Part shown: positions 5,659 to 60,827 of the stretch, piece after piece | Layout: every line of letters begins with the position of its first letter | How positions within the stretch are numbered: the stretch's first letter is position 1 | Assembly (NCBI GenBank): GCA_030998225.1 | Contig: JAPYXD010000744.1 | Coordinates: 1,302,001-1,366,000, forward strand | Direction: 5' to 3' | Source of the DNA: Diplolepis rosae | Taxonomy: Eukaryota; Arthropoda; Insecta; Hymenoptera; Diplolepididae | DNA: 64,000 nucleotides | Program-made: the position numbers and the translations under genes | Notes under the pieces: model-generated | What the model saw: the letters and a program-made list of their open reading frames with translations, nothing else | What the model was told of the DNA's origin: nothing | The model's database searches: none

Positions 5659-5800
5659 GGACGCCTGTGTAGCTCAGTGGTTAGAGCAATCGACCGGCAT
5701 TCGAAAGACCTGGGCTCGAATCCCAGCGCAGTTGAAAGCGTTTATTTTCCACAGAAAGATTTCAAATTCTTTAAATCACTGATAATATTGAGTAATACGA
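5659..5800 (+). repeat. tRNA-derived SINE, full head
   Basis: The head has a pol III A box (TAGCTCAGTGG), a D arm GCTC/GAGC, a perfect T arm CTGGG-CTCGAAT-CCCAG that includes a B box, and a weak acceptor pairing CTGTG/CGCAG. The anticodon arm is poor, so this is tRNA-derived rather than a working tRNA gene. It is followed by GAAAGCG and TTCAAATTCTTTAAAT, the 3' end seen in the SINE copies at 9208, 51538 and 54340. Confidence 0.75.
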
Positions 5801-9192: not shown

Positions 9193-9493
9193 ATATTAAT
9201 TATCACAATTAATTAGTTGAGTTTGAAATTTTTGTCACTGCCTACATTATCGGAGGATCACTAGTCGCGTATCAGATAGGATACGTTGTCGACAGGTGTC
9301 CTCGTAGACAATTTCAAACTCTTATATCGCAAATAATGCAAATAAATTCAATATTTAAAGAATTTGAAAATCTTTCTGTGGAAAAAATGACGCTTTCGAC
9401 TGCGCTGGGATTCGAGCCCAGGTCTTTCGATTGCCGGTCGACGTCTTTTTTTCAACAGAAAGATTTCAAATTCTTTAAATATTAATTATCACA
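9193..9493. mobile_element. SINE-like retroposon with 15-bp TSD
   Basis: The insert 9208-9478 is flanked by ATATTAATTATCACA (9193-9207 and 9479-9493). The neighbouring direct unit shows the empty site near 10540-10555. The insert carries a reversed tRNA-like segment (CTGGGATTCGAGCCCAG and GATTGCCGGTCGAC). It is the same family as 51538-51846. Confidence 0.8.
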
Positions 9494-25640: not shown

Positions 25641-26470
25641 GGTTTTATGAGCCGTTGTTCTCAGTGAAGAAACGATTTCTGTCTGTGTCTGTCTGTCTGT
25701 CTAGTATAGTAGTAGGTCGTATACTCGATAACTCTCGATAGAATTATCCGGATTGGATTGAGCTATGGCATAATATATCGGAGCCGAAAAAGTAAGAACA
25801 AGTTCGTTAACCAGACACATCCGCCCAAAATTGTCAAAATATGAGCATTTTTGTGTTTTTGAGAAAAACTGTATGAAAAAATCAAAAATTTCAATACTAG
25901 TTTCTGGTAGTTCACATAAATCTCTACTAATTATCCTAATAAAATATTTCGATTAAACTAAAATTAGGAAAGTTTCAGTATGTTAAAACTTGAAAAATGT
26001 CAATATCCAAATTCCATTTTTTAGTTAAATTATACGAATTAAGAAAAAAAGATATGTTACAAAATTGTTTACTATATACAGATCTATACAAGTTTGAATC
26101 GCAATATTTTTTCATAAGATGTGTATTTTTCTTTTCAATTTAAAAAAATACTTAAAGAATTTGAAAATCATTCTGTATTGAAAATCCAAAATTCAATTTT
26201 TCAACAATAATATGTAGAATACGAAGAAAACGTAAGTTTGCAAAATTTTTCGTTTCAATAAGATCTAAAAATTTTGTCTGACATATTTTCTGATAAAGCC
26301 TATATTTTTCATTTTAATTTCAAAAATACGATTAAAATTCGAAAATTCCATTTTTATAATAAAATATGTGAGATACAAAATAAGCGTTAAAATCAAAAAT
26401 CGTTTGCTTAAAAAAAGTCTATGAATTTTTGCCTTTGTGAAAATGTAATCCACATCTACAATATTATAAA
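25641..26470 (-). repeat. Dispersed repeat, inverted: CTGT repeats plus 160-bp units
   Basis: It begins with (CTGT)n at 25680-25702, then the inverse of the TTGGGCGGATGTG block seen at 11690, then degenerate 160-bp units as at 7715-8224. A small frame inside is not a gene. Confidence 0.6.
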
Positions 26471-43902: not shown

Positions 43903-45657
43903 CCCGTGTAGAAATTTCCCTATCTTTCCATATTTCAAGTTGGGTTCTAGTGGGGCCCGGACTAGAATTTCCTCTTCTAGAAAAAACTGGTGGGGGCCCT
44001 GTTAGCACCCGATTAGTATTTCTAGTCCAGAAAAAACTGATAGGGGCCCTGTCAGGTTCCGGTGAGGAATTCCTTGTTTCGCTTAAGTATGGAAAATCTA
44101 TTTGTATCTAGCGGGGCCCCGACTAGAGAATCCCTACTTGTAATATTTGTGGTTAAGGTTAGGTCCATTAGATACAACATAACCTTTATTCTTTATTCCC
44201 ATTAAAATTTGATTTTATCTGAGAAAAATGGAGATTTTCTGAACACGGTCTTGAATATGATCAATACTTAAGAGGAATCAAGAACATCTAAGAAAACTTT
44301 TTCATAATTTTGACTCGAATTCGCATGTAATTATAATAATCATATGCGAGCACGTATGTGTATGTGTGTGTATCTTATTGTGTCGAGGTAATAACGATAA
44401 TTTAAGTTTCTTGATTCAAAAGTTTCATCATATTTTTGGAATTGAAAAAACTTAAATTTTTTAGATTCTGAACATACGTTGATTTTACTCTTGAAAACAA
44501 AAATTAAAGGAATCATAACGTGTATAAAGTATCACTAATATACAATAATAAAAATTAATACTTCTAAAATGTATATGAAGCTTTTTATTATGTAATGTTC
44601 TTTAATTCAAAAATTTGATCTGTTTATTTCAAAAATATTTTATTTTATAGAAAATCGATTTAATAATTAAAAGTCGTAAAAATTTTAATCAGAATCATAA
44701 ATTGGGCTAAAATCTAAAAATTCGCGATTACACGGGGCCTATACACTTCTTACATGGCCCTGCAGTAGTTGAAGGTTATAAGCGCTATTTTCTTTCTCGT
44801 ATTCCAAGCGTGCGCAGCCGAGAGGCTTAGTCGTTAGGTTAGTAATGCGTTAATTATAAGTAGAGAGGGTTCGAACCCGCAGCGTTATGAATAATTTTTA
44901 ATACCACCTGAACGAGCGTTTGTCTAGTGTAGAGAGGGGGGTGTGTGTTTGTAGGTGTGTATATAAAAACAGTAAGTTAGAGTCTACTTGAAAGTATATA
45001 CAGTTTTGAAATGTACTAAGAATATTCATCGATTCAAGTACTGCTCCTTATTAGATTTACCAATGTTCCTGCAGTTCACTTAACTTCAAAAATGACACTT
45101 GGGGCCTTTACAAACTACGGAAAGTAAGTTAAAAAGTAGTCAAACCTACTGCGATTTTTTTTCGGTGTACATGTAACGAAAAAAGACTGTCAATTTACTC
45201 AGAAAAAAATTCCTATCTTGAAAACAGATTTTTCACTGTGTAAACAGTAAACTTAACCTTCCAAGCGAATATCCCTCCGTTGCCGTTAAAAACGGTAAAT
45301 ATTAGAGTCTTAACTCGAATTTCCCCTGTACTTTTTCTCTCAATGTGGAAAATTGTCTTTATTTATTATTTTCTCAAAGAGATACCTGAACAAGATTGGT
45401 CACGTGACTCTGCTGATGTATGCCCTTAAATTCAATGCGGAGGGTGAATAGGGCCCTAATGGTGTCCTTTTTTGTAGGTGGGGTAGTGAAAGGGCTGACC
45501 TCACTAAACCCCTACTAGAAAGTCTAGTAGGGCCCACGTCGACAAAAGCGTTACGTTACCGACGGGGCCCTGACTAGTTTTCCACGCTAGATCCCGACTA
45601 GAGATAGGGAAAACTCGTCGGGGCCCCACTAGACCCCTATCAAAATTTCTACACGGG
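43903..45657 (+). mobile_element. D element, complete copy 4, TT duplication
   Basis: Its ends are CCCGTGTAGAAATTTCC and the inverse of AAAATTTCTACACGGG, with TT on both sides (43901-43902 and 45658-45659). Both ends have clusters of GGGCCC and CTAGTC/GACTAG words, like the subterminal repeats of CACTA elements. The middle carries the tRNA-like module (about 44815-44890). This is the reference copy for D fragments at 5881, 13011 and 15534. It encodes no protein and needs a transposase in trans. Confidence 0.88.
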
Positions 45658-47760: not shown

Positions 47761-48331
47761 TCGTTAGAATAAATCGTAAAAGTGAATCATAGTTTAGTAT
47801 AATATCGTTTCAAAGTGAGGCAAGCAGGGTTTACATATCAGAAATTAATATAGTGGTTTTCAAGGGGCAAATTGATATTTTCGTTTGTACCCGTGTGGAA
47901 ATTTCGTCCTGGCGCTAGCCAGGCCCCAACCAGAAAAAACCGGGCCCCTACTTGGGTATCGAGGCAGGACCAAACCGCTAATGAAACTTGGCACCGTTCA
48001 TTTTGTGAGTCTCAGTCAAATTGAATCAGTGCCTCAGCCACATACATTTTTTTTTTAATGACTTCATCTAATCCTTCTAGAATAATTTTCGAGATTTAAA
48101 ATGTAGTTCAAGTCATATATTTTAATATTATTAACAAATATTTTGAATTGAATTTGATTTTGAGATTACACGGAGAAAAATGGATATTGACCCATAATAT
48201 CTAGATATTGAGGCACAATGTCAGTAGCATTCAACTATGTGACAAACTTTTGTAATAGTTAATTTGGCATGGGGTCAGTTTTGATACGGATTTATTTTTT
48301 TAAGTGATAGAACACATAAAAAATACAAAAA

Positions 48332-51517: not shown

Positions 51518-51866
51518 TTTAGATATTCTACTTCAATTAATTAGTTGAGTTTGAAATTTTTGTCACTGCCTACATTATCGGAGGATCACTAGTCGCGTAT
51601 CAGATAGGATACGTTGTCGACAGGTGTCCTCGTAGACAATTTCAAACTCTTATATCGCAAATAATGCAAATAAATTCAATATTTAAAGAATTTGAAAATC
51701 TTTCTGTGGAAAAAATGACGCTTTCGACTGCGCTGGGATTCGAGCCCAGGTCTTTCGATTGCCGGTCGACTGCTGTCGAAAGACCTGGGGTCGAATCCCA
51801 GCGCAGTCGAAAGCGTCATTTTTTCCACAGGAAGATTTTCAAATTCTTTAGATATTCTACTTCAAT
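51518..51866. mobile_element. SINE-like retroposon with 20-bp TSD
   Basis: The insert 51538-51846 is flanked by TTTAGATATTCTACTTCAAT on both sides. Its 3' half is a hairpin of two tRNA-like segments (GGTCTTTCGATTGCCGGTCG and CGAAAGACCTGGG...TCGAATCCCAGCGCAGTCG). The 5' half has GTCACTGCCTACATTATCGG. Confidence 0.85.
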
Positions 51867-52701: not shown

Positions 52702-53202
52702 CACTGTGAAACCAAGTATGAACTTTTTAAGAACCTTTTAATGGAGTTCACGACAGCCCATTCATTTATTAAAAATGAAAGTGTCAAACACGCAGTTAAA
52801 ATAAATGAAAAAATTTAACACTTTATTCCAACCTCTAAAATGACAGATTCAAAGTCTAATCTACAAATTTGATTTAGTTACTATCGTTTTCATTGCTTAC
52901 TCTTCTTGCTTTAATTATCGCGCGATTTCTCCGGACTCGTCCAGTGCTCTTTATTTTGGGCATTTTAATTAGCACGCACAGAAATTAAACACATACACTA
53001 TCGAACATAATCATTAATATCTTTGCCATAATTTAAAGAACCCGGGTTTAAGATTGGAGGCGATCTAAAAACACAACCACAGCCAAAGTAGGTGGCACTG
53101 TAACCGCAACCAGTATTGAACAAGGATCAAGGTTGGCTTTATGCCACATCCAAGACATTCGCCATGTTGTAGCCAAATAATAATTTTCCAAGTTGGGGCC
53201 AC
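52702..53202. other. No gene; remnant of the outer element
   Basis: A/T-rich sequence between two insertions; assigned by position to the element 47889-60825. Confidence 0.35.
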
Positions 53203-53481
53203 ACGGAGAAACTTTTTATATCAATTTTTACTATAGTATTTTTCAATTTAGGGAAAAACGTATCACTTTGAGAATTTTTGTTAGTAAAAATGCTAAACCT
53301 TATAATAATGATATGAAACTTTAGTATAAACTATAGTAAAATTTGCTATGAACTGTGCTGAAGTTTCATATCATTATTATAAAGATTAGTATTTTTACTA
53401 ACAAAAATTCTCAAAGTGATGCGTTCTTCCCTAAATTGAAAAATGCTATAGTAAAAATTGATATAAAAAGTTTCTCCGTGC
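53203..53481. mobile_element. Palindromic MITE, CACGGAGAAAC ends, CA duplication
   Basis: Almost perfectly inverted halves (CACGGAGAAACTTTTTATAT; TTACTAACAAAAATTCTCAA), flanked by CA. It sits seven bases from the 53488 element. Confidence 0.85.
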
Positions 53482-53766
53482 AAACTTCCCATGTGGAAAT
53501 TTTTCTAGGCGCTGTACAGAATCAGTCAAGTCCGTCTAGAATTTGTACTGGCGCGGGACAGATTGACTGTCCAGTGGCTATACCGAAATGTAACGCTCGG
53601 ATCGACTAGCAACAAGACAGTTTGGCTATGTAGAAGCTAGGCAGTGGGGCTAGATATATCTAGTAAACCTACATGAAATCTGGATTCGGAATTAATATGT
53701 ATGTTTAATTATGAAAAACCAATTAAAGCCTATGAATAAAAAGAGAAATTGTTACTTTTTACTCTT

Positions 53767-56700
53767 TTATTTGTTCAACACTTCTATTTCTTTATCGTTA
53801 ACTTTCTCCAGCATTAAAATATCTCCATCTGGATTTGTTAAATCTTTTAAATTTGATTTCTTGTTTGCTCTTAGAGCCCGATAACCGTCCCAGTCGACAG
53901 AGTTTGTTATTACTGGTCCTAAGGACTTTAAAAACTCCTTTTCCGTTAATTGTTTGCCCTCCAACTTGTATCGTTTGGTGATAATATCTGAAATTCAAAG
54001 CACATATTTTAAAATTTGAACCATACAGGTAGTTTTGGAATAGAAGCTAAGTAAAATATAATATAATAAATACCATACCAAGCATACACTTGTAGAATTC
54101 CGTGTCTTTGAAAATGAAAGCCCTGTTCTCAGTTTTTTTAACGGCATTAAAAAGAATCATAAGATCCCTCGCAAAATAACATTTGAGAATGCTATTTTGA
54201 GTTCGAGATAGTATGCCACTTCTGTCCATTGAATCGTTAAAAGTTTGTTTCTGCAAAATTAAAATAATAATGATTCTTTACAATAATAAATTTTATTGTT
54301 GTAAAAATTGTACAACAATAGATATTATTTCAAATTAATTAGTTAATTAATTAATTGAGTTTAAAATTTTTGTCACTGGCTACATTATCGGAGGATCACT
54401 AGTCGCGTGTCAGATAGGATACGCTGTCGACAGGTGTCCTCGTAGACAATTTCAAACCCTTCTATCATGCAAATGAATTCAATATTTAAAGAATTTGAAA
54501 ATCTTTTAGTAGAAAAAAGACGCTTTCGAGTGCGCTGGGATTCGAGGCCAGGTCTTTCGATTGCCGGTCGACTGCTCTAACCACAGAGCAGTCGACCGGC
54601 AATCGAAAGACCTGGCCTCGAATCCCAGCGCAGTCGAAAGCGTCTTTTTTTCCACAGAAAGATTTTCAAATTCTTTAAATATTGAATAAATATTATTGTT
54701 GTTACAATTGTGCAACAATCAATATTATTGTTGTAACTAATAAATAAATGTAAAAATAAATATTGTTGTTTAAAACGTACATATATGAAGGCATTTGTTA
54801 AAATAATATTATGCAAATTTGTGAACCTACAAATTCATATCTAAAGGAAGAATCAGATTTAAGTCGATTGTCAAATTCTTGGAATGCCTCTAGATTCGGG
54901 ATGGGCAAAGACAATTCATGTTTTTCGCCAAAAGTGCGAGGTAGATCTAGATTCAGACCGTTAGCAACTAGCATAGCCTCAATGTCCTGCAGCTTTCTTT
55001 TCATTTCCTGATTATCTAGATGAAGGATGTGTAGTGCTTTCATCACTTTCACAAACAGGAGTCCGGCATTTTCTATAAATACAATAAATAATAACAATAA
55101 TTTATTACTATATTACCTTTTAATTAAATTAAACAGTAGCGTAGTGGTAAATTAACAGATCGATGAATATTGTACATAATACTACTTTGATACCTTTTTC
55201 TTCAGCAGTAATCACTCCTCCAAATATTGGAAGAAATTCATCGTTTTTCTCAAGGATAGGTGCTGAAATGTATACAAAACAATACTATAATATTCTTTAT
55301 AAATTTCAAGTAGCTAAAGTTCTAAAAGCTCAAATGAATGAAAATTTTTCTTATAGTAAAACTTGTTTTGAAATATTGTTCCAACTACAAATGAAAGTGC
55401 AATTTACAGGTTTTACTCAACGCTACACTAATTTCCTTGTAAAGTAAAAATGTATTTAAGATTAATTTGATTTTCAAATCAATCAAATAAAAATTTCGTT
55501 CATTTGAACATATAGGTCTTCAGGCACATATAAATTTCAGAAACTTTTTTCTTTAGCAATTATAATTTGTAAGTACTCGTATTAGAAAACTATTGAAATT
55601 ACTTACTGTTGAAAAATATTTTTGAGCGTTCCTTGAGAACTTTGCCACTCTTCTTAGAAACGGCTTTTTTAGTCAGATCACCGGTAGAGCCTGGGCTTAG
55701 TTTCTCAAACGCAGATAAATAAACTTGGGAAGTTTTTTTGCTTAAACACTTTTTCAAATCTGCAAATTAAAATAAAATGCATAGTAAACTTAATCTAAAA
55801 ACGAGTGTATTTTTACTTTCTGTAGAAAATTGATTTACTTTCTTTATTACTGATACATTTTTTAGAAGGCCTTAATTTTTTTGGAGAAGGTTCTGTTTCG
55901 ACAGCTTCATGAACCTCTGCGAGTACAGTCTTCTCCCTGGAGAAACCTGTGCATTAGAAATTAAAATTGAGTTACATTACTAGACATGAAAAAGAGGAAA
56001 AGAAAATATTCTTTTGAACATACTATAAGAATTGTTTTCAAGTGGTGTATTTTCGACAAATGACATCCTTTTTCGCTTTCTGATTTTTTCCCTCTCAATC
56101 GAAGAAAATGAATTGTCGGTACTCGCATTTTTATCAGAGTCTATAAAAAATTAGAAAATAAGCGAAAGAAATAAAATCACAGCCTTAATGATTTATTGAA
56201 ACGGGCTCTTACCACTATTCATATTCATCTTTTTCGGGCGTTTCGAAAAAGGCTTTAATTTTTTTCTTTCCTTTTTGTTAGAAGATGGTCCGTAATCATT
56301 TATCGATTCTTCTGATGCTGGAAAAGATTTTATTCAAAGTAATATACTTCTAGTGTTTGGATTTCACAAAGTTATTTAATTAACCTATAAATTATTTAGA
56401 GTAAAAATATGGAATATAATTTTCAAAATAATTAACAAATGTAGTTTTTCACTCTTTCTTATTTAATATACCTAAATAGAAATATTTACTTGAATTTTTT
56501 GTGTATCCTGTATCTATATAAGAGAATGGAGCGCTAACTTTCAAAACTTCGTCTTCCTCTTGCTGACTGACTTTTAATTTGGTATCACGAAACCTTTTCT
56601 TAGCAACTTCCGCTTGCTCAGCTGCATTGATTTCAGTCTCAGTTGTATAAACATATTCTGTAAATTTTAATTTATTCAATCGAATTTTTGCATCCTCCCA

Positions 56701-57060
56701 AGTTTCTGTAATAAAAATTTGTTTAATAACTTATTCCTTATAAAAATTTGTATGAAAAATAAGCATTAAATAAAATAAAAAATAAAATTACTTACTAGCA
56801 CGGCCTTTAAAAGCTATTGGGTATTCAGACCAATAATCGGGAGCATCTCCTAAAGTTTTCAATAGCTTGTTTAATTCAAGAAGAGTACTTTTGTTATAAG
56901 GAGGAGGGGGGTATTTAGTGACATGGATTTCCTTACTTCTTTTGAAAGAAATCCACGTACTTAAAACAATATCTACAAGAGCTCTGCCCTCGTTATCTTC
57001 GTACCCAAGAAATGAAACCAATTCATAAGGGTAGTCATCTTCATCCTTGATACTCGACAT
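53767..57060 (-). CDS. DUF4806-domain protein, transposon-borne, ten exons
   Basis: I assembled ten exons (57060-56796, 56705-56472, 56317-56213, 56140-56024, 55946-55839, 55759-55607, 55262-55194, 55072-54831, 54250-54079, 53987-53767) with GT-AG introns. They join in one frame of 561 residues without a stop; seven introns are phase 1. The N-terminal 110 residues (LVSFLGYEDNEG..., PYNKSTLLELNKLL, KTWEDAKIRLNKLKFTEY) resemble the N-terminal part of insect DUF4806 proteins. The middle is basic and low-complexity with KKERKKLKPFSKRPKKMN, a likely nuclear signal. A short coiled coil (HLDNQEMKRKLQDIEAML) precedes the C-terminal DUF4806 (LPIPNLEAFQEFDNRL... to FYKCMLDIITKRYK). The domain's function is unknown. 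Being inside the same ends as the transposase suggests an accessory DNA-binding or regulatory role, like plant TnpA; that is inference. Start: first ATG; an upstream in-frame ATG at 57090 is possible. Confidence 0.8.
54331..54690. mobile_element. SINE-like retroposon in an intron of the DUF4806 gene
   Basis: It has the same 5' part as 51538 (GTCACTGGCTACATTATCGG) and a near-perfect hairpin of tRNA-like segments (54515-54660) around GACTGCTCTAACCACAGAGC. It lies in the intron between exons 8 and 9, so splicing removes it. The exact target duplication is unclear in the surrounding TTAATTAATT sequence. Confidence 0.75.
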
Positions 57061-57912
57061 TATTCTAAAAAGAAAAGTTACCCATGTCATACTTACAATT
57101 TAAAAATATCATATTAAAGCAAATCTAAACTAGAATGAATTAAATATTTTTTAAACGTAAAAACAGTGGAAAATCAGTATTAATCATATAATCTAACACC
57201 CAGACAAAGATTATTAAAATACAACTTACAAAAACGTTTTAAAACTAGGTTGTGCTATATATCCTTTATTTGCACTTGCCTTTTTAATTGCCACAAAAAC
57301 TGCAAAAAGCACCAAAAAACTGGAAATCGGAGAAGGCTGATATAGGATTCTGATATAAGGATTTCTCATGAGATTGAAATTTTCGTGTCAAATGAAAAGG
57401 AAAATTAAGCACAGGTTACTACGCGCACCTTTCCTTTGTCTTTCCTTTTTGTTCTTTTTCTCGAAATTTCTAAAAACTCCAACTCACTTCAATGTTATGG
57501 CGTCTCACACTGACACCAACCTATCTAAGCGGAACCTACCACCGGGTATGCAATAAAAAAATAAGTTAAGGCTTAAATCAATTGTCATTTTTGAATTCTG
57601 AATAAATTGAAAAGCTTCTACTTTCCTCGATCGTTAAGCACGGTCCAATCAATATTTTTTAATTGAACTTTTCCTGAAAATTTCATAAAAGTATTCTAAA
57701 TTTCGAAATCGTAAATTCAATTAGACGTTTTTTTGATTGTATATAAAATATATATATGTATCATAAATTTTTTCACATTTTATGTATATTTTTAAAATTT
57801 TAACATAAGTAATTTTTATTATTAATTCAATAAATTGGACACTTCTACAAAAATAAATTCAATATCAAATAACAAATAAATTTTAATGTGAGTAATATAA
57901 ACAACGTTTACA
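57061..57912. other. Spacer between the two transposon genes
   Basis: AT-rich, with a short GC-richer part at 57400-57540 just upstream of the DUF4806 start that could hold its promoter. No domain-bearing frame. Confidence 0.4.
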
Positions 57913-60334
57913 TTAATCATTGTGGAGAATAGGTACAACGTAGAAGTGTTTGCCTCCTTCTGCTTTTATTGTGATCGCCATTTTCACCAGTTTAGCTTGT
58001 ATAGATGTTACAGGGAAAGTTCTCAATCCAGCTGAGGGTTTGCTGTAAATTTCCCACATATGCAGTAACGATGAATCAAAAGGATAAGAAAATATTGGTT
58101 TTTTTTTCCCGTAGATATATCCTGAAATTTCCAGATTTTCTACACTTCCAGCTATTTTTACTACTTTTATAATTTCGTTATTCGTTAAAAGAATTGTGTT
58201 ATCAGTATTATTTGTGGTGCAAATTGTAATTCCTTTGACTTTAATTTTTAAAATGCTGTTCGCCTTTTCTTTCAAAATCTCTATATTAGGAGGTAGTTTA
58301 GGTTTCGCTTCCACTATTGACCTTTCTTCGTGTAGTCTTCTGCATATCTGGGCTAGCAACTTATATGGAGTTCTTAATCTTTCTTTTAGTTTTCCTAAGA
58401 AACTCTCGAATGCAAAAGCCGAAATTCTACTTAAGCTGCATCCCATCTGAATTACATCATCTGCTAAATGAATTAGGTGATGAGCATTTAGGACTTGTGT
58501 TTTTGCCCCGTAAAAAACTTTCAAGCCTTTGAAAAAAGCTCTTAGATATTCTTTAGCATACGCATTAAATGTAATGCAAATATCGTCCGAGCACAAAATT
58601 CTACAAGCGACGTGGCAAAGTAAAAAATGTTTATATAATTTCCGTGGCAGAACGTTTATTAGAACAATTGGTCCACAGTACAACGCAAAAAAACGAAATT
58701 GTGTGGCTTTCCAATTATTAAATTTTTTAGTTGTCTTCGGTTTTCGTTGATGAAACTCAAACGGAACTTGTGATTTAAGCAACTCCATTCGGTCTGAAAG
58801 AACCTCTCTCATTCTAGGACCTAATTTTACATTTAGGTCACCAGTAAGCCACCATTCAATCAATTTCTTCATAACACCCAGACAACACAAATGCATGAAA
58901 TCCAAGACAAACAACAATATCATATTGACTAGAGGATTTATTTGCAGTAAATGTGTTTGTCCGTTATGATGATCTGGTTGTGTTTGGTTTCTAAAGGATG
59001 CATCTGATCTTTCAGGGCAATCTGATGAGGGATAAACAGTGCTAGGCAAGTTTCCTTTCGTTCCATCTACTGTGCACCTTTCACAAGCATTTTTTGCACC
59101 ATGGTAAACCGTATTTTTGCAGAATGCTCTCGCTGGAGTGTCGCACACAAAACATTTTACGCGTACAGTATACTGTTTTCCTGCTATTATAATTCCGTCC
59201 CTCAGTAATTTGTTGCTTTCCTCAACGAATTTTTCAAAATATAATTCGTTACTGCCTGGTTTTGATTTTCCACAGAAAATGGAAATTGGAAATGGTTTGT
59301 AGATATCTGGATTAAAATGAACTTGGCATGAATGAGGCCAAAGTTGATCATCGCCACCTGATTTATTAACCGGAAGACCATCCACAGAGAATTTCAACTC
59401 AATTACGTCGTTTACGTGCACTGCAGGATCGATACAAGCTTCCAGCCCTTTTTTAATTCCAAAGTACACAAATTCTCCTTCAGAGCCATCGTTTGCTTAC
59501 ATTGGCTCAATTGTGTACCTTGCACTTGTCGTATTTAGGAAAGTTTTCGCACTTTTGGGTAGATCTGGCAATAATCTGGCTCTCAGAATTTGGAGCATTT
59601 CGTCTACATGAGCTTGGTCTATTTTATTTTTGATTGCCCAAGTACGCAAACGTTGAATATCACCAAGGTCTTCATTTTCACCTTCTTCACTATCAGAGTC
59701 ACCAGCAATCAATCTTACATCATGAGAATCTTCCTCTTGGTCTTCATCTGTGCTTTCTTCCCTGCTTTCTGAGGATGAATTCAAAGAGTCCTTCTCTTCG
59801 CTTTCAGAAATTCTTTGTCCCATTTCAGAATCTGAAGTCACGGCTTCATTTGTGCTGCCCAATTGCACAACTTCAGCATCAATGTTTTCAGAAATCCCCG
59901 CTAGAAGTAAAATGTTAATTGTAACAAAAAGTTTTATTTGTAAATAGAAATTTAATAAAAATTAAAATAAAAATGTAATATTTCCAATTATCAAGTCATT
60001 TTTTTAAATTTTCTATTCAAGATGATTAATGTTCTTCATGAAGACAAATAACTGTTTTCATAAAGCTATTAATGAATGTTTACTTAAGTAAAGTAATAGC
60101 GAAAAAAATATTGGTTGATAAATTTGGGAAAGAGAATTAGCTACGTGTAAGTCAAAATAATTATCGCAGATAAATAGCTCTTTTCATAGAATAAAATGTC
60201 TTACCTTCCGAGTCCGAGCCAGTTGACGATAAATTGACAGCTCCTGAATCCCGTAATTTGGCAGCTTTGGCAAGAGCTCTAAATTTCCTTACACGGGCTA
60301 CTGTTAATTTTCGTTTACGTTTTAAATTTTCCAT
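57913..60334 (-). pseudogene. CACTA/tnp2-like DDE transposase, two exons, one in-frame stop
   Basis: Exon 1 (60334-60205) encodes a basic start MENLKRKRKLTVARVRKF; donor GTAAGAC. Exon 2 starts at 59900 after TTCTAG and stays in frame. An acidic region (SESREESTDEDQEED) leads to YTIEPM, then TAA at 59499-59497, then the same frame continues for 527 residues. In the 518-residue part, the order VDGLP (Asp30), CFVCDTPARAF (Asp110), CERC (129-132), LDFMHLCCLGVMK (Asp190) and FAFESFLGKLKE parallels plant tnp2 (SDG...DFPA...CPYC...DVMH). Asp30, Asp110 and the FES glutamate are candidate DDE residues. It would cut and join element ends. One stop, possibly a sequence error or read-through, is the only visible lesion. 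Confidence 0.82.
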
Positions 60335-60788
60335 ATTTTGGACCTATTAAAGGATACAAATTACATGGTATTAAACTGATTAGAACTAACCTCCACTTAA
60401 ATAAATAAAAGTCAATGAATACCTACCTGCGATTGTTTTAGGCAATATACTTCAAGAATAATTATAATTTCAAACAACACAATTTTTTATGATTCATAAA
60501 GTAATTATATGTATATAAAAATGTTTAAACATGACATACCTTTTTTTCTAAGTTCAAATAGGCAGACTGTCTAGTACCATCATAAAATCTTGAGAGATTT
60601 TCAGTATCGCTAAAGTCTCGTGATTTTATATTGGCTCTTTGCAGACTGACTTGACAACGATACAATCACAGTAAAACTAGACAGCGCCAAGATCGCACCA
60701 GTCTAGCAATTCGTGAATAGTCAGGCGTCATAAAAACTGTACCGGCGTTAGTATGATTCCAAACTGCCATGAAATTTTTCCACACGGG
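60335..60788. promoter_or_regulatory. Subterminal region upstream of the transposase
   Basis: It contains repeated AGACTGTCTAG, GCAGACTGACTTGAC, CTAGACAGCGCC and CCAGTCTAGC words. By analogy with CACTA elements these may be protein-binding repeats; the transposase promoter should also lie here. Confidence 0.45.
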
Positions 60789-60827
60789 TTGTAATAGGGC
60801 AAAAATTTGGCAATTTCCACACGGGTA

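Follow-up and report, generated by a model that had tools for sequence, protein, structure and literature searches.

The window analysed here, the whole 64-kb stretch of DNA from Diplolepis rosae, contains a 7,301-bp transposable element (53488-60788) with CCC-ended inverted repeats and TT on each side. Between the ends, the minus strand carries two genes, one for a tnp2-like transposase and a second one of the DUF4806 type (a domain of unknown function). In the one genome surveyed (757.7 Mb), the same ends enclose both genes, which move as a pair and keep their order and strand in diverged families. The element was interpreted as a two-gene element of the TRC type (animal CACTA/EnSpm) whose DUF4806 protein acts as a DNA-binding partner in transposition, a reading to which we give a probability of about 0.6. 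The pairing of the DUF4806 gene with the transposase was observed directly, and the biochemical role of the DUF4806 protein is what we infer beyond it.

Structure of the window element

The initial annotation had described a matched pair of ends with a TT duplication around two genes on one strand, and the ends, the TT and the gene order were all recovered. The features are as follows:

53486..53487, no strand: left copy of the TT target-site duplication, read from the sequence
53488..53505, plus strand: left terminal inverted repeat CCCATGTGGAAATTTTTC, with a near-identical end in another copy (C108) and in two derivatives (L065, L066)
60771..60788, minus strand: right terminal inverted repeat CCCGTGTGGAAAAATTTC, from the sequence and an end-pattern search
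60789..60790, no strand: right copy of the TT target-site duplication, read from the sequence
57913..60334, minus strand: transposase gene, exon 1 at 60334-60205 and exon 2 at about 59900-57913, from open reading frames and start and donor analysis, with the exon 2 acceptor placed by eye
58303..59496, minus strand: RAG1/Transib-like core of the transposase, from alignment and structure model comparison
59380-59382, 59140-59142 and 58405-58407, minus strand: likely DDE triad D39, D119 and E364, a candidate assignment
57934..58290, minus strand: BAH-like C-terminal domain of the transposase, about residues 403-521
53767..57060, minus strand: second gene, ten exons, open frame of 555 amino acids (aa), from splice options, translation, spliced alignment and Pfam
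57060-56796, 56705-56490, 56317-56213, 56140-56024 and 55946-55839, minus strand: exons 1-5 of the second gene
55759-55607, 55262-55194, 55072-54831, 54250-54079 and 53987-53767, minus strand: exons 6-10 of the second gene
56797..57060, minus strand: exon 1, conserved N-terminal domain of the second protein, from alignment and model
54079..55072, minus strand: exons 8-9, DUF4806 match (residues 399-483), from Pfam

In inverted orientation the termini follow the consensus CCC[A/G]TGTGGAAA[A/T][A/T]TTTC. The pattern CCCRTGTGGAAAWWTTTC, derived from these two ends and allowing at most three mismatches, was matched eight times in the window (the two ends and six other places), against 0.61 matches expected, and none of 100 shuffles gave eight. 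CCC is present at both termini, as in TRC/animal CACTA elements, and the 2-bp target-site duplication of TRC elements was seen in 10 of the 12 insertions for which both ends were read; the termini read CCCRTGT and not the CACTA of plant elements. Based on the CCC ends, the 2-bp duplications and the tnp2-related transposase, the element was assigned to the TRC type, with the reservation that the Pfam transposase domain is reached only by relatives of its transposase.

The transposase frame is split by an in-frame TAA at 59497-59499, where homologs read on. This stop does not occur in the C108 copy, and the C418 copy is deleted at that place. The window element is structurally complete, yet with its interrupted frame this copy is non-autonomous, a dead family member with an open DUF4806 gene and a closed transposase, and calling it a complete transposon, as had been done at first, was wrong for this copy. 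The core of the proposed tnp2-type DDE transposase folds like RAG1/Transib. The Transposase_21 domain (PF02992) was matched by two of 15 aligned relatives (best E 2.3e-6), and the window piece itself matched no Pfam model at E<=1. PF02992 is also precomputed on 5 of 120 listed homologs, and no relatives were found with a transposase profile among viral and prokaryote contigs. The C-terminus of the protein is BAH-like. D39, D119 and E364 are invariant in 41/41 aligned sequences. In the predicted model their positions follow strands or fall within a late helix, and from this placement they are the likely candidates for the catalytic triad.

The second gene admits a reading in ten exons separated by GT-AG introns; at two of its splice sites another choice is nearly as good and would alter the protein length by 2-4 aa. 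A purpose-written spliced aligner given the 555-aa protein returned the same exons, which is a check of consistency and not independent evidence of transcription. In the N-terminal domain, W36, P54 and W77 are invariant in seven aligned second proteins. This domain was modelled with a predicted local distance difference test score (pLDDT) of 87.3, and a fold search with it against the PDB gave nothing better than E 1.9. Intron 8 of the gene contains a palindromic repeat of about 340 bp (54345-54687), a nested short mobile element of which copies or parts occur at 51535-51856, 9207-9487, 5672-5776 and 26147-26184 of the window.

The gene pair in copies, families and the genome

The initial annotation had asked whether other copies keep both genes between the same ends. 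Two further copies of the window's own family, C108 (99.1%) and C418 (98.7%), span these ends with both genes, aligning to the window element with gaps of 299, 39 and 131 bp and showing TT and AT duplications. In both, gaps and newly arisen stops (1 and 2) break the second gene; the transposase is gapped too, so the family looks dead.

The pair was also found in related families, whose transposases have 38-56% identity with that of the window. The C383 element has its two ends at positions 87 and 7717 of the joined stretch, a TG duplication, the second gene inside, and an unbroken transposase frame of 647 aa. Seven copies of C32 have the same right end (one base is changed in one of them) in seven different flanks; the left end is the same in six copies, with 2-bp duplications in 4/6, and two copies are 99.6% identical over 10.1 kb, both genes included. 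For C309, the most diverged family opened (38% transposase identity), the other two copies share 3.9-4.1 kb at 99.4-99.6% with most of a DUF4806-like gene, which lies downstream of the transposase and on the transposase strand. Inspected by eye, the C309 locus has two DUF4806-like genes, one antisense to the transposase and tail to tail with it (L040:3536-6679, minus strand) and one on the transposase strand (L040:8515 onward, plus strand). Copies ending between the two genes, which had been named beforehand as one outcome that would speak against the pairing, were looked for in this genome; none was found among the three own-family copies, C383 and the C32 copies, of which two were covered in full and five by their ends and DUF4806 exons.

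The DNA downstream of the transposase was tested for the second gene in eight families (C32 and C383 first, then C353, C382a, C393, C150, C88 and C309), of which C383 and C353 already had weak second-gene matches before this test. Earlier controls were 14 window stretches, which peaked at 161.8 with the window query and 125.4 with the C383 query, and 11 antisense controls, one of which scored 324.8 (the reverse strand of the C383 locus, aligned with the query derived from that same locus); a null of 200 pooled random sequences (first-order chains, 20 for each of ten targets) was used instead, with spliced alignment of the two parts of the window's second protein. For the N-terminal part, 0/200 random sequences came up to the family score in C383, C32, C353, C382a, C393 and C150, and 1/200 in C88; for the C-terminal part, this was 0/200 in C383, C32, C393, C150 and C88. 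Both parts were thus clear in four of the eight families and one part in three, with C309 marginal.

These results bear on the possibility that the DUF4806 gene was captured from the host and is a passenger with no function in the life of the element. Some related loci do have DUF4806 genes without a transposase, and C309 has its additional antisense gene, but the same type of second gene stands downstream and on the same strand across families with transposases as diverged as these, and independently captured passengers are not expected to keep place and strand. We regard a passenger as quite improbable; the conserved place and strand, together with the recurrence in diverged families, indicate that the DUF4806 gene is a gene of the element.

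For the genome-wide test, transposases were represented by a capped list of 80 loci; this is a lower bound, with 82 of 903 candidates having been scored. The window protein found 97 places forming 37 loci, five of which are within 10 kb of listed transposase loci (0.08 expected; P 2e-8 under uniform placement). When the C32 protein was used as query, 67 DUF4806 loci were obtained (78 of 120 places were used, and the 42 omitted were further exons of counted loci). The association for which the initial annotation had proposed a test was seen here: 33/67 loci have one of the 80 listed transposase loci within 10 kb, where 0.15 were expected. The DUF4806 locus is on the same strand as the transposase and downstream of it, 0.8-5.4 kb off, in 33/33 pairs, 24 of which lie outside the query's own family. 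The weight of the association lies in this agreement of order and strand across families. Two independent features standing side by side by chance at one locus could be thought of when only a single copy was in view, as it was for the initial annotation; this is contradicted by the three own-family copies, the seven C32 copies and the 33 oriented pairs, and its probability is practically negligible.

Proposed role of the second protein

PMC11075544, with reference to Pan et al. 2023, describes DUF4806 as a subtype of BEN, a DNA-binding domain. Since BEN domains bind DNA, the simplest mechanism would be that of a DNA-binding partner. The element would encode two proteins. One would be a DDE transposase that has a RAG1/Transib fold and ends in a BAH-like module; the other would be of the DUF4806 type and have a conserved N-terminal domain of its own. 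The DUF4806 protein, if of BEN type as published, would bind element DNA and might help the transposase at the ends by marking them, control the element promoter, or do both, a role modelled on that of TnpA beside TnpD in maize Spm. By sequence, the DUF4806 domain of the second protein had no match in the PDB. When protein databases were searched with the second protein, no match was obtained (7992 candidates scored in one search, 76 candidates in another), which is a limit of the word search. The DUF4806 hidden Markov model (HMM) from Pfam had no match over the whole genome; introns split the domain, and this result is uninformative, as 0/14 control genomes were matched either.

Alternatively, the DUF4806 gene may be an element gene outside the transposition machinery, acting in the regulation of transcription or against silencing by the host. 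Published abstracts describe BEN domain proteins as transcription and chromatin factors, the BAH-like module of the transposase resembles chromatin readers, so that chromatin may matter to the element, and the strict order and strand of the pair would fit any essential element gene. The data here do not separate such a regulator from a transposition partner; maize TnpA, according to passages of PMC1636069, acts on the element promoter and is also needed for transposition. Such a gene outside the transposition machinery is considered rather unlikely.

Several results weigh against the reading of the DUF4806 protein as a transposition partner encoded by the element. Against the Pfam DUF4806 model (PF16064), the second protein of the window scored 17.2 bits (E 0.0063), below the gathering cut-off of 25, and the model was matched neither by the two C309 genes nor by the C-terminal parts of C383 and C418b. 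The intact ten-exon gene ending in DUF4806, as initially annotated, is upheld in its ten exons and open 555-aa frame but sub-threshold in its Pfam score. The second genes of C32 (25.4) and C393 (26.5) are above the cut-off and that of C150 (22.7) is below it; these two relatives above the cut-off support the DUF4806 assignment. The HMM search proposed for both proteins thus reached Transposase_21 and DUF4806 in relatives only, with no qualifying match for the window proteins. In the eight-family test, the C-terminal part was not significant in C353 (9/200) and C382a (17/200; its recognisable C-terminal exon sits at the very end of the examined stretch), and C309 was weak by score (N-terminal part 15/200, C-terminal part 1/200). 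The DUF4806 gene of C108 and C418 has 10 and 14 non-silent changes (stops included) against 1 and 1 silent; it decays like the transposase in these sister copies, so that selection cannot be seen at this depth. Nor can the 33 pairs be counted as independent: nine belong to the C32 family and about seven look like C383-family copies, so that the nominal P of 6e-69 overstates the association. In the 200-bp subterminal stretch at either end of the window element, exact 6-8-mers recur no more often than in shuffles, and this lack of exact subterminal repeats above chance weakens a close analogy with TnpA. Finally, 34/67 DUF4806 loci (C32 query) and 32/37 (window query) have no listed transposase within 10 kb, which counts against a simple one-to-one pairing. 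The suggestion that the element explains DUF4806 copy number is thus supported for this genome and limited by these loci.

Among the 32 loci of the window query, 21 are short pieces of 107-560 bp that cover only the end of the protein (residues 394-555), and ten of the 32 were inspected in detail. L065 and L066, which are among the 21, are internally deleted derivatives with an end that equals the left end of the window element except for one base; their other end lies beyond the examined stretch. C418b (L061:6379 to L063:452), 2.6 kb long, has both CCC ends and an AT duplication; it holds parts of the second gene and no transposase. An CCCGTGTGGAAAAATTTC end is nearby at C424:10561156, C394 and C418b, with no transposase in the examined stretch. 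Transposase fragments lie upstream of the DUF4806 locus in C252, and C237, C347, C94 and C372 contain a common short repeat carrying exon 1 and no transposase.

In a wider and more tentative reading, to which we give somewhat less than even odds, the DUF4806 family of insects (perhaps also of Hydra and zebrafish) would to a large extent be a BEN-type, DNA-binding protein, the second subunit working beside the transposase in a two-protein system that is RAG1-like and BAH-tagged; stranded copies would then look like host genes. If this is true, the BEN-type factors of animals have a transposon-borne branch. The pairing places DUF4806, an uncharacterised domain listed as expanded in genome papers, in a genomic context, and is a warning that DUF4806 gene models can be transposon genes.

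Other mobile elements were also noted in the window. A non-autonomous element of 1.75 kb (43903-45657), bounded by CCCGTGTAGAAATTT ends, shows a TT duplication. It resembles the two-gene family C353 in its left end, and by eye GGGGCCC/GACTAG-like motifs are repeated close to each of its ends. At 47890 and 60825 there is an outer pair of CCCGTGTGGAAATT ends, flanked by TA on either side, and the 7.3-kb element may have inserted into a larger 12.9-kb relative, close to the right end of the latter. The transposon has on its immediate left a roughly 280-bp element (53202-53480) with inverted repeats, whose ends CACGGAGAAACTTTTTATATCAA were read by eye and which is similar to a miniature inverted-repeat transposable element (MITE).

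Comparison with known systems

No link of DUF4806 or BEN domains to transposons was found in the passages, titles and abstract openings of the open-access literature searched, papers on TRC elements and TnpA included; subscription journals and Repbase lay outside this search. What animal CACTA elements use in the place of TnpA now becomes directly testable. It has been reported that two Hydra species have 69 and 54 DUF4806 genes (passages of PMC7642931). Spongebob/EnSpm-4N1_HM of Hydra, which is classed as TRC, resembles the wasp element in its CCC ends and 2-bp duplication, and no second gene is mentioned for it in the passages of PMC4298943.

Maize Spm, as described in passages of PMC1636069, encodes the tnp2-type transposase TnpD and TnpA, both of which are essential for transposition. 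Like plant CACTA/En-Spm elements, the wasp element has a tnp2-type transposase plus a second element-encoded protein; unlike them, it has CCC ends and no exact subterminal repeats above chance, and its proteins come from two separate genes, according to gene models from DNA alone. Over the aligned core, the wasp transposase is about 9-14% identical in sequence to RAG1/RAG2 recombinase and Transib.

A further comparison is with the TRC elements themselves, which are also reported from Tribolium and Aedes (DeMarco et al. 2006, passages of PMC1636069). In the same passages, SmTRC1 of Schistosoma is about 4.5 kb long with 54-bp repeats and encodes further proteins (SmTRC-PrA and others) with no conserved second family, the portions outside Transposase_21 being not detectably conserved. 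The wasp elements share with TRC, as far as these passages describe it, the CCC ends, the 2-bp target duplication, a transposase with Transposase_21 matches among its relatives, spliced genes (seen as transcripts in SmTRC1) and further proteins, and differ from it as published there in their recurrent second gene of the DUF4806 type.
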